Below, piece by piece: positions 16,992 through 61,529 of a stretch of 64,000 nucleotides of DNA. A program made the translations under genes and the position numbers. The DNA comes from Bacteroidia bacterium. GTDB lineage: Bacteria > Bacteroidota > Bacteroidia > B-17B0 > Aurantibacillaceae. The notes beneath the pieces were generated by a model, which was not told the origin of the DNA, made no database searches, and saw only the letters and a list, made by a program, of their open reading frames with translations. The stretch is from NCBI GenBank assembly GCA_016787445.1, contig JAEUTQ010000069.1, positions 1-64,000 on the forward strand, given 5' to 3'. Within the stretch, counting starts at the first letter, position 1. Every line of letters begins with the position of its first letter.

Positions 16992-17038
16992 TTGCTACAA
17001 AACGTAGCAACACTTCGCTTTAATTCGTAGTAATTTTG
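16992..17038 (+). promoter_or_regulatory. Promoter with palindromic operator candidate (motif copy 1)
   Basis: A perfect -7 box TAATTTTG lies at 17031-17038. Exactly 18 bases upstream ends the 18-mer CTACAAAACGTAGCAACA (16995-17012), part of an inverted repeat TTGCTAC (16992-16998) / GTAGCAA (17004-17010). The same 18-mer, differing only in three central bases, occurs at 60093-60110 with the same 18-base spacing to the -7 box of another gene. It covers the -33 position, so a regulator bound there would control the promoter directly. Confidence 0.6.
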
Positions 17039-17061: not shown

Positions 17062-17448
17062 ATGAATTATTCAGTAGTACATGTTAACAAGATGGTATAT
17101 GAGCACAGAGAGGTTGTAAAACTTGAGTTTTCATATAGCGATGAATTAGTAAAATTAGTAAAGAGCCTTCCGGGTGCCAAGTGGGATAAGTTATACCGCA
17201 TGTGGTACATCGAGAAACGTACCGGCTTACTTAATGAGGTGTTGAATTGTTTTAAAGGCAAAGCTTACTTAGATTATAAAGCACTAAAAAATGAAGCGAT
17301 GCTTACAGCGCAACCTGTTTTGGAATGTAAAACAGAAGTACCACAGCCCGTTAAGAGCGTTTACTACAACAACAGTAAAACAGCTCCGGTTAAACAAGCT
17401 ACAAAAAAGCAAAGTGCCAAGGCAAAACAATACGCCTTGTTTATTTGA
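17062..17448 (+). CDS. Lone integrase N-terminal (arm/core-binding-like) domain protein
   Basis: A 128-residue protein whose first about 75 residues look like the N-terminal DNA-binding region of Bacteroidota tyrosine recombinases: a basic beta-rich start, then FSYSDELVKLVKSLPGAKWD, LYRMWYIEKRTGLLNEVLNCF and KGKAYLD. No catalytic recombinase domain (R-H-R-Y) follows; instead there is a Lys/Gln-rich tail. It has its own promoter and normal codon use, so it looks like an intact small gene rather than decay. It may be a domesticated DNA-binding protein; function unknown. Confidence 0.7.
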   Translation: MNYSVVHVNKMVYEHREVVKLEFSYSDELVKLVKSLPGAKWDKLYRMWYIEKRTGLLNEVLNCFKGKAYLDYKALKNEAMLTAQPVLECKTEVPQPVKSVYYNNSKTAPVKQATKKQSAKAKQYALFI

Positions 17449-17493
17449 TTTTATGACACATAATTGATATTTTTATTTTCAACAATTTCAATT

Positions 17494-17949
17494 ATGCGCT
17501 CAGAAGCCAAAACTCCGAATGAATATTTTAAATCTTTACCGGAAGAACGTAAAGAAGCAATGGATGAATTACGAAAAACCATTCTGAAAAATTTACCGAA
17601 AGGATTTGAAGAAGGAATGGGTTATGGCATGGTTGGATACGTGGTTCCGCATTCAATTTATCCAAAAGGATATCATTGCGATCCAAAACAACCACTTCCT
17701 TTTATGGGACTGGCTTCACAAAAAAACTTCATTGCTTTTTATCACATGGGGATATATGCCAATAAAGACTTACATGATTGGTTTGTGAGCGAATTTCCAA
17801 AACACAGTAAATACAAATTGGATATGGGGAAAAGCTGTATCCGATTTAAGAAAACAGACGGAATTCCTTATAAGTTAATTGGAGAACTTGTAAAAAAGGT
17901 AAGTGTGAAAGATTGGATTTCGAATTACGAAAAAGCCTTTAAAAAATAA
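17494..17949 (+). CDS. DUF1801 domain protein
   Basis: About 151 residues, starting at the ATG at 17494 (MRSEAKTPNEYFKSLPEER); an in-frame start ten codons earlier adds only a hydrophobic stretch and is less likely. The DUF1801 pattern is evident: LRKTILKNLPKGFEEGMGYGMVGY, then FMGLASQKNFIAFYHMG and a C-terminal CIRFKKTD. The fold is YdhG-like, a small cytosolic protein of unknown role. Convergent with the phosphoesterase gene, with which it ends back to back. Confidence 0.82.
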   Translation: MRSEAKTPNEYFKSLPEERKEAMDELRKTILKNLPKGFEEGMGYGMVGYVVPHSIYPKGYHCDPKQPLPFMGLASQKNFIAFYHMGIYANKDLHDWFVSEFPKHSKYKLDMGKSCIRFKKTDGIPYKLIGELVKKVSVKDWISNYEKAFKK

Positions 17950-59460: not shown

Positions 59461-60090
59461 ATGAAAACGGCCATTATATTCGGAGTAACAGGTTTAACAG
59501 GAAAAGCTCTTTTGCACAATATTGTAGAGGATGCCCGTTACTCCAAAATTTATATCGTTACCCGACGACCTTGCGGATTTATACATCCAAAAGTTGAAGA
59601 AATACTTTTCAATTATAAAGACTTTAAAGAAATGCCTCCTATAAAGGCTGATCACGTTTTCTGTTGCTTGGGAACTACCATAAAAAAAGCTGGCTCAAAA
59701 GAAGCACAACAAATCATTGACCGTGATTATCCTATTGAAATTGCCAAATATTCTAATACACTTGGCGTCGAAAAAATGGTTACAGTTTCTTCTATTGGCG
59801 CTGATGCCAAATCATCGAATTTCTATTTACGTACCAAAGGTGAAATGGAAGAAGGTGTAAAATCAAATTTTAAACATTCCGTATTTGTTCGTCCCTCTTT
59901 TTTATTGGGTAACAGAGAAGAAATGCGTATTGGTGAAAAGATTGGGATTGCTTTATTTTCCATCATCAACCCTCTTTTATTCGGCAGTTTATCCAAATAT
60001 AAAGGCATTCACGTGAGCCAACTCTCAAAAGCGATGATTAACGCTTGTTTTAATAAAACGGAAGAGGTTTTATATTATAAAGATTTTTAA
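59461..60090 (+). CDS. NAD(P)-binding oxidoreductase, TIP30/atypical SDR type
   Basis: A 209-residue atypical short-chain protein: IFGVTGLTGKALLHNI (residues 5-20), ADHVFCCLGTTIKKAGSKEA, VEKMVTVSSIGADAKSSNFYLRTKGEMEEG with Ser and Tyr-x-x-x-Lys-like residues, and FVRPSFLLGNREEMR. Resembles human TIP30/HTATIP2 and small bacterial NAD(P) proteins; substrate unknown. Preceded by 112 bases with a loose repeat (TTTCTGGTTT) but no clear promoter. Confidence 0.82.
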   Translation: MKTAIIFGVTGLTGKALLHNIVEDARYSKIYIVTRRPCGFIHPKVEEILFNYKDFKEMPPIKADHVFCCLGTTIKKAGSKEAQQIIDRDYPIEIAKYSNTLGVEKMVTVSSIGADAKSSNFYLRTKGEMEEGVKSNFKHSVFVRPSFLLGNREEMRIGEKIGIALFSIINPLLFGSLSKYKGIHVSQLSKAMINACFNKTEEVLYYKDF

Positions 60091-60092
60091 TT

Positions 60093-60136
60093 CTACAATT
60101 TGTAGCAACAATTTTCTTAATCCTTGCTTAAATTTA
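60093..60136 (+). promoter_or_regulatory. Promoter with the same operator candidate (motif copy 2)
   Basis: The 18-mer CTACAATTTGTAGCAACA (60093-60110) equals the motif at 16995-17012 except for three central bases. Exactly 18 bases later comes the -7 box TAAATTTA (60129-60136; last base A for G), four bases before the GTG at 60141. Position and distance match copy 1. Confidence 0.6.
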
Positions 60137-60140
60137 TCTC

Positions 60141-61529
60141 GTGTTTGCAATTATCGATATTGAAACCTGCGGAGGGAAATTTGATTTCCGACATGGAAGA
60201 ATTACTGAAATTTGTATTGTAAAGCACGATGGTTTACAAGTAATAGATGTTTGGTCGACACTCATTAATCCGGAGTGCCACATCAGCACCTACTTTACCA
60301 GTCTTACCGGTATAACCAATGACATGGTTCGTGATGCCCCTAAATTTTATGAAGTAGCTAAGAAAATCATTGAAATGACCGAAGGTTGCATTTTTGTTGC
60401 GCACAATGTAGGTTTTGATTATGGGTTTATAAAAGAAGAATTTGCGTCATTAGGATACAAATACAGAAAGGATACTTTATGCACAGTTAGACTAAGCAGA
60501 AAATTAATACCGGGAAGAATTTCCTACAGCTTAGGTCATTTATGCGCCTCCTTGGGAATAGAAATTGAAGGAAGACACCGCGCACAAGGCGATGCGGAAG
60601 CTACGGCTAAATTATTTGATTTGTTATTGCAATTAAAATCACAACATCCTCAATACAAAAATATGGGCGTAGAAGAAATCATGACACGCCGCATTGATAA
60701 AATTAAAGAATATATTCTCAAAAAATTACCGGAAGAATGTGGTGTGTATTATTTCCTGAATAAGGATCAAGAGATTATTTACATTGGAAAAAGTACCAAT
60801 ATGTATCAGCGGGCCATTGCACACTTTAACAGTAAAGAGAACAAAAGCAAAAAGCTCCTGAATGATTTATACAATGTTGATTTTGTAGTTACCGGAAGTG
60901 AATTAGTAGCGCTTCTGCATGAATCTTCTGAAATCAAAAAGCATAAACCTAAATATAACCGTGCGCGCAAAGCCGATGAGTTTACTCACAGTATAGACTC
61001 CTTCAAAGACAAAAGCGGCATCATCAACTTTAAGATTGTTGCTTACGAAGAATCGGAGAACGCTGTAGATTCATTCGTCACATACTCTTCAGCACGCGAA
61101 AAACTAGAAAAATGGATTGATGAATATGAGTTGTGTTTACGCTATTGCGGATTAACGGGAGAAGACGCCGTTTGTTTTAATCATCAGATAAAAAAATGTA
61201 AAGGCATTTGTAACAATGAAGAAGAAGTTGAAGTGTATAACAAACGTGCTGAAGAAGTGATAAAAAAATCGGCTTACGAAAAATCAAATTTTCTTATTCT
61301 TGACAAAGGCCGTCATCATGAAGAAAGAGCTTTGATTCTAATTGAAAACAATCAATACAAAGGATATGGTTTTATTGACTCCAGTCATCAAATAAATTCT
61401 ATGGATGATTGCCGCGACATCATCACTCACGCACCCTATTATCCTGATAGCGATAATCTGGTAAAAGGCTGGATGCGCACCAACAAATACTATAAAACCT
61501 TTGAATTAACTGTCAATAATTTTAATTAA
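60141..61529 (+). CDS. DnaQ-like exonuclease fused to GIY-YIG nuclease
   Basis: A 462-residue fusion: a DEDDh 3'-5' exonuclease (residues 1-165; D6-I-E8, HNVGFD with Asp93, HRAQGD with His146 and Asp151), then a GIY-YIG nuclease (about 198-275, GVYYF ... IIYIGKS) and a UvrC-like C-terminal part with CKGIC (about 352-356). Similar fusions (for example Rv2191 of Mycobacterium) are thought to act in DNA repair, like Cho. Starts at a GTG. The promoter carries the shared palindrome motif. Confidence 0.9.
   Translation: MFAIIDIETCGGKFDFRHGRITEICIVKHDGLQVIDVWSTLINPECHISTYFTSLTGITNDMVRDAPKFYEVAKKIIEMTEGCIFVAHNVGFDYGFIKEEFASLGYKYRKDTLCTVRLSRKLIPGRISYSLGHLCASLGIEIEGRHRAQGDAEATAKLFDLLLQLKSQHPQYKNMGVEEIMTRRIDKIKEYILKKLPEECGVYYFLNKDQEIIYIGKSTNMYQRAIAHFNSKENKSKKLLNDLYNVDFVVTGSELVALLHESSEIKKHKPKYNRARKADEFTHSIDSFKDKSGIINFKIVAYEESENAVDSFVTYSSAREKLEKWIDEYELCLRYCGLTGEDAVCFNHQIKKCKGICNNEEEVEVYNKRAEEVIKKSAYEKSNFLILDKGRHHEERALILIENNQYKGYGFIDSSHQINSMDDCRDIITHAPYYPDSDNLVKGWMRTNKYYKTFELTVNNFN

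Follow-up and report, generated by a model that had tools for sequence, protein, structure and literature searches.

A recombinase N-domain kept as a gene of its own behind an SOS-type box, probably turned into a DNA-damage-response protein, in a genus of Bacteroidia

How does the opening of a recombinase come to stand as a gene of its own, and what might it do there? The window analysed here, a stretch of 64,000 nucleotides, contains a short open reading frame that runs exactly over the interval given in Table 1, from ATG to TGA, and is a real gene. A class-III aminotransferase gene is its 5' neighbour; on the 3' side come a gene for a DUF1801 protein and one for a metallophosphoesterase. The sequence-only reading had taken the product for the DNA-binding opening of a Bacteroidota tyrosine recombinase, possibly domesticated. 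Pfam, PHROGs, NCBIfam and PADLOC assign the protein to no family with significance: the Pfam profiles of Arm-DNA-bind and SAM-like integrase N-domains did not match above cut-off, and sub-threshold DUF5710 and HARP hits were the sole standouts in the curated libraries. A scan of the orthologous loci against Rfam found nothing. The gene content between the stand-alone gene and the metallophosphoesterase gene (17449-17949 in the window, and loci L034-L037) varies by species, with DUF1801, a GxxExxY-like gene plus a small protein, or a GIY-YIG-like gene, marking a spot of gene turnover.

Table 1. Features of the stand-alone gene and its promoter in the window
Feature	Position	Strand	Support
Stand-alone N-domain protein, 128 aa, stop codon included	17062..17448	+	
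Folded domain, putatively HARP-like, residues 1-76	17062..17289	+	AlphaFold pLDDT of about 90 for most residues; 4o66 matched by Foldseek and by profile; purifying selection
Disordered, lysine-rich, fast-evolving linker, about residues 79-121	17296..17424	+	pLDDT below 50; high dN in residues 86-128
C-terminal hexapeptide QYALFI, conserved, a candidate motif for binding the DnaN clamp	17428..17445	+	
SOS-type operator, perfect palindrome TTGCTAC-AAAAC-GTAGCAA	16992..17010	+	Kept in six genomes of the genus
Further half-site GTAGTAA, overlapping the promoter	17027..17033	+	Five of six genomes read GTAGTAA, the other one ATAGTAA
Probable Bacteroidota -7 element TAnnTTTG (TAATTTTG)	17031..17038	+	TA-A-N-TTTG in six of six genomes

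Whereas the named Pfam profiles were insignificant, direct comparison with integrases was not. The best match outside the genus is a 383-residue integrase of another genus (E 5e-20, 42% identity over 76 residues), and many further integrases match with E values down to 1e-14, far above chance. These matches are the N termini of recombinases of about 380 residues that carry PF13495 and PF00589 and score as XerA- or integron-integrase-like in NCBIfam. Homology covers roughly the first 115 residues of these Xer/integron-type tyrosine recombinases and stops where the SAM-like domain begins: the alignment runs on through the linker, pairing the end of the protein, KQSAKAKQYALFI, with ERQKAKVTEFKKWM, where the integrase's SAM-like domain starts, and in tblastn with the 383-residue integrase it reaches integrase residue 114 in two orthologues. 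Neither the gene nor the window contains the PF00589 catalytic domain with its R-H-R-Y residues, and a tblastn search of all 64 kb with three full integrases as queries returned the gene itself and one chance-level match (E 0.31); related loci hold no catalytic remnant either. The recombinase origin of the gene is well supported, and the simplest reading would make it the 5' part of an integrase gene. Compared with the long Xer/integron-type recombinases of Bacteroidia (PF13495 plus PF00589; NF040815, TIGR02249-like), it has in common the N-domain, the linker and, often, an upstream SOS-type box, but it lacks the SAM-like and catalytic domains, carries a new conserved C terminus and has no attC-like sites nearby. 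The earlier claims that this is a free gene without a catalytic part, and that neither an integrase fragment nor an att site lies close by, are thus borne out, the latter with an ad hoc attC pattern that found nothing in the window. At the related loci, the same kind of site was absent from four of five, while the fifth (L037) gave a single weak match of 54 nt. An integron remnant at this position was rejected on the absence of attC-like sites from the window and from those four loci, though the small downstream genes vary between species.

Could the gene simply be a decaying, functionless integrase relic? Related genera do hold broken integrases with an open N-terminal frame, but the selection data already refute this reading, which we find scarcely credible. 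Full-length orthologues are present in five of the eight genus genomes (identities of 97% in G007, 69% in G006, 68% in G003 and 64% in G001), and in a sixth, G002, the gene start sits at a contig end. Absence from the remaining two is uninformative because these genomes are incomplete (84 and 75%) and the neighbouring aminotransferase gene is missing from them too. That gene lies directly 5' in G000, G007 and G003, and is separated from the stand-alone gene by one gene in G006 and by two in G002; in G001 the stand-alone gene is located elsewhere. Residues 1-85 are under strong purifying selection: G000 and G007 differ by six synonymous and no nonsynonymous changes, G006 and G003 show a dN of 0.04 at a dS of 0.97, and wider pairs reach a dN of about 0.17 with dS saturated, a constraint seen against near-saturated synonymous divergence. 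Also against decay, the operator is conserved, the stop position is fixed among the five orthologues despite three different stop codons (TGA, TAA or TAG), and the five genomes' proteins form a single clade in a tree of 27 N-domains (100/99). This clade adjoins the 383-residue integrase of another genus, at support that is not strong (94/74).

Retention of the stand-alone gene in the genus is therefore well supported; the form itself is confined to this one genus, which makes the sample small. In 395 genomes of the class, every match of E 1e-9 or better that falls outside the genus belongs to a frame of at least 373 residues. The candidate stand-alone forms inspected in other genera turned out to be contig ends or integrases that are frameshifted or decayed, the catalytic half lying alongside; weaker short frames, outside the inspected set, occur in G039, G044, G057 and G103. 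A scan of genome contigs gave no matches with the single protein as query and four metagenome-assembled genomes of the genus with the alignment. The stand-alone form is thus conserved in relatives, as the sequence-only reading had proposed to look for, and is not restricted to integrase debris, the window and the related loci being free of catalytic remnants. Since a free gene with its own operator, no debris nearby and a stand-alone form kept in relatives support domestication, that part of the idea of a domesticated DNA-binding factor stands; the interpretation as a whole is supported in part. The analysis goes beyond it in specifying the promoter box as SOS-type, the domain as apparently HARP-like and the C terminus as conserved.

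The gene had also been credited with its own, probably regulated promoter, and a dedicated promoter region with a palindrome is indeed present. Conserved in six genomes before the gene is the palindrome TGCTACA-N4-(G/A)TAGCA, followed about 20 bp on by TA-A-N-TTTG, which fits TAnnTTTG, the -7 consensus of Bacteroidota, and is probably such an element; the recA box is followed at a distance of about 21 bp by a similar sequence, TACCTTTG. The own genome has two copies of the perfect 19-bp palindrome TTGCTACN5GTAGCAA; in the window, chance alone would give 0.31 matches at up to two mismatches. In the same genome, close variants of it stand before recA, before an XRE-S24 repressor gene and, within the window, before a DnaQ-GIY-YIG exonuclease gene; a genus-wide scan added boxes at ruvB and comM. 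The palindrome is very probably the SOS operator of this lineage, because it also stands before recA (eight of eight genus genomes), the LexA-like XRE-S24 gene (five genomes under a strict pattern), ruvB and many full-length relatives of our gene. With a matrix trained on the recA, lexA-like and ruvB boxes only (sites of 10 bits or more within 160 bp before a gene), sites precede 25 of the 39 genes with this N-domain, the stand-alone ones included, mostly 50-70 bp upstream, against 0.2% in shuffles. In Bacteroidetes, LexA is represented by S24 proteins with CI-like DNA-binding domains that bind palindromes with 5-bp spacers (Sanchez-Osuna et al. 2021, PMC8565304), and the CTAC-N5-GTAG motif found here is close to a validated variant, TTAC-AAATT-GTAA (PMC8565304). 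An SOS-type box at the promoter is well supported. Full-length relatives in this bacterial family would apparently be SOS-controlled too, and the gene would have inherited that promoter. The window holds another SOS-type box at 60090-60108 (ATTCTACAATTTGTAGCAA), before a gene at 60141-61526 whose product, a DnaQ-like exonuclease, also has a GIY-YIG domain; exonucleases of this type are reported to be SOS-regulated in Bacteroidetes (PMC8565304).

Because the protein is small, DNA-binding-like and basic in its tail, and its promoter contains a palindrome, it might be taken for a transcription regulator, that is, a sequence-specific DNA-binding protein controlling its own or other promoters. We regard this as very unlikely: repair genes such as recA, and the XRE-S24 gene, have the palindrome too, even in genomes where the stand-alone gene was not found, so another protein must read it, and no helix-turn-helix is predicted in the 128-residue protein. 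As a binding site of the N-domain itself, the palindrome was set aside on the same sharing with recA and other repair genes.

What was the parent system? In the surroundings of five full-length integrases, six attC-like hairpins (TAAC...CGTTA) were found, all 3' of the integrase and on its strand, compared with none to two (mean 0.3) in 20 shuffles. The pattern is ad hoc, and the hairpins support an integron-type parent without amounting to proof; they were noted at L124, L126, L127 and L128, and at L127 an Rfam DUF805b RNA motif (RF02914, 14307-14343) also lies downstream of the integrase. The family's long integrases have the appearance of integron-type systems that are uncatalogued and have their integrases under SOS control. 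Such control is known for class 1 integrons and Vibrio (PMC3108266), whose LexA-type box and downstream attC-like hairpins are matched by the full-length relatives. The latter differ in being from Bacteroidota, in their non-canonical LexA, in an extra HARP-like N-domain and in scoring below cut-off for TIGR02249; the stand-alone gene itself, unlike all of these, is not an integrase. The box points to integron-type integrases of this bacterial family being under a non-canonical LexA, as in Vibrio and class 1 integrons under theirs.

As domain and box kind are common to the gene and the full-length integrases, the main named rival is a dominant-negative modulator: the free N-domain, co-made with integrases in the SOS response, would compete for DNA sites or join their complexes and so damp cassette recombination. 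The own genome does encode a full-length relative, on contig C74, but at 25% identity it is distant. Two genomes, G003 and the 100% complete G006, keep the stand-alone gene with no detectable full-length gene that has its N-domain, G006 in particular speaking for independence from integrases, and the changed, conserved C terminus would be left unexplained. We hold this rival to be unlikely.

The fold offers a hint of what the protein may bind. AlphaFold predicts a confident domain over about residues 1-76 and disorder in the remainder. With the whole protein as query, Foldseek puts the HARP domain of SMARCAL1 (4o66) at the top (E 0.06); when the domain is trimmed out, 4o66 comes second (E 0.027), below E. 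coli YciH. The viral matches include proteins named HepA-related. The family profile has a single match in the PDB, again 4o66 (E 0.71), and Pfam HARP (PF07443) scores 16.7 bits (E 0.0055), below its curated cut-off of 25 bits. Each match is weak alone, but they converge, and we favour a HARP-like domain over an Arm-DNA-bind or SAM-like one; of the earlier assignment to the opening of tyrosine recombinases, the homology has held and the kind of domain has not. The likeness to SMARCAL1 consists of the Foldseek match and a short sequence match around ...LPGAKWD...W...; unlike SMARCAL1 HARP, the protein scores below curated thresholds and has no helicase attached. In the integrases, a HARP-like domain could suit the folded single-stranded sites used by integrons.

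The remainder of the protein is of a different kind. Its tail is basic, as the sequence-only reading had stated (9 K, 2 E and no R in residues 86-128), and the linker varies in length by 11 residues between orthologues. The C terminus, by contrast with this fast-evolving linker, is conserved: KQYALFI in four orthologues and KQYALLI in the fifth. Bacterial clamp-binding proteins have C-terminal QL(S/D)LF-like motifs (PMC9690074), and they resemble our protein in placing Q..L[F/L] at the C terminus after a disordered linker, though QYALF/L departs from the consensus at position 2. Peptides of the usual clamp-motif pattern occur in the own DinB (QFDLF) and DnaE (QASLF), and Q..L[F/L] was found in the last ten residues of none of 154 open reading frames of 150 residues or more. 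Docking on the clamp by this C terminus is plausible from the motif, and part of its hydrophobic pattern may be a remnant of the parent's SAM helix (EFKKWM).

Taken together, a recombinase piece has probably been turned into a DNA-damage-response protein, most likely a DNA-structure-binding accessory factor. The 5' part of an SOS-regulated integron-type recombinase gene, comprising operator, promoter, N-domain and linker, would have been freed once, in or before the ancestor of the genus, and retained under selection. With the operator repressed by the non-canonical LexA, damage to DNA would lift the repression, and the 128-residue protein would be made; its HARP-like domain, as in SMARCAL1, would bind branched or single-stranded DNA, and QYALF/L-I at the end of the disordered linker may dock on the DnaN sliding clamp, so that the protein would act at damaged forks or gaps as an accessory protein free of catalysis. 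The computation shows the homology and origin, the retention and selection, the sharing of the SOS-type box and the conserved C terminus; that damage induces the gene, that the domain binds DNA in the HARP manner, that the clamp is docked on and what the protein does in the cell are inferred. We hold the whole reading, an SOS-induced, catalysis-free DNA-structure-binding factor domesticated from a recombinase and possibly clamp-docked, tentatively and at somewhat short of even confidence. The more specific proposal of a new small SOS effector of Bacteroidota, combining a recombinase-derived HARP-like domain, a disordered linker and a clamp-docking peptide at damaged forks and domesticated from an SOS-controlled integron-type system, is possible but doubtful. 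Purifying selection and the conserved C terminus show function of whatever kind, and would also fit another retained role, for example binding to the nucleoid or to single-stranded DNA, or a part in defence when foreign DNA comes in; the C terminus would then serve some other partner. This we consider rather unlikely; for defence, PADLOC gave no match and no defence-like neighbours were recognised next to the gene in the window. The locus is a clear case in which an enzyme of a mobile element has lost its catalytic part and what is left is maintained by the host as a gene, its operator and promoter having come with the coding part.

SOS-type or similar boxes were also seen upstream of ORF6N-domain genes (L057 and L062, also L049), and both the own genome (L062, contig C74) and G007 (L127) have an ORF6N gene that directly adjoins a full-length integrase. 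Genes that resemble REP-associated tyrosine transposases, identified by eye only, begin right next to SOS-type palindromes at L067 and L056; the one at L067 lies directly upstream of dinB.
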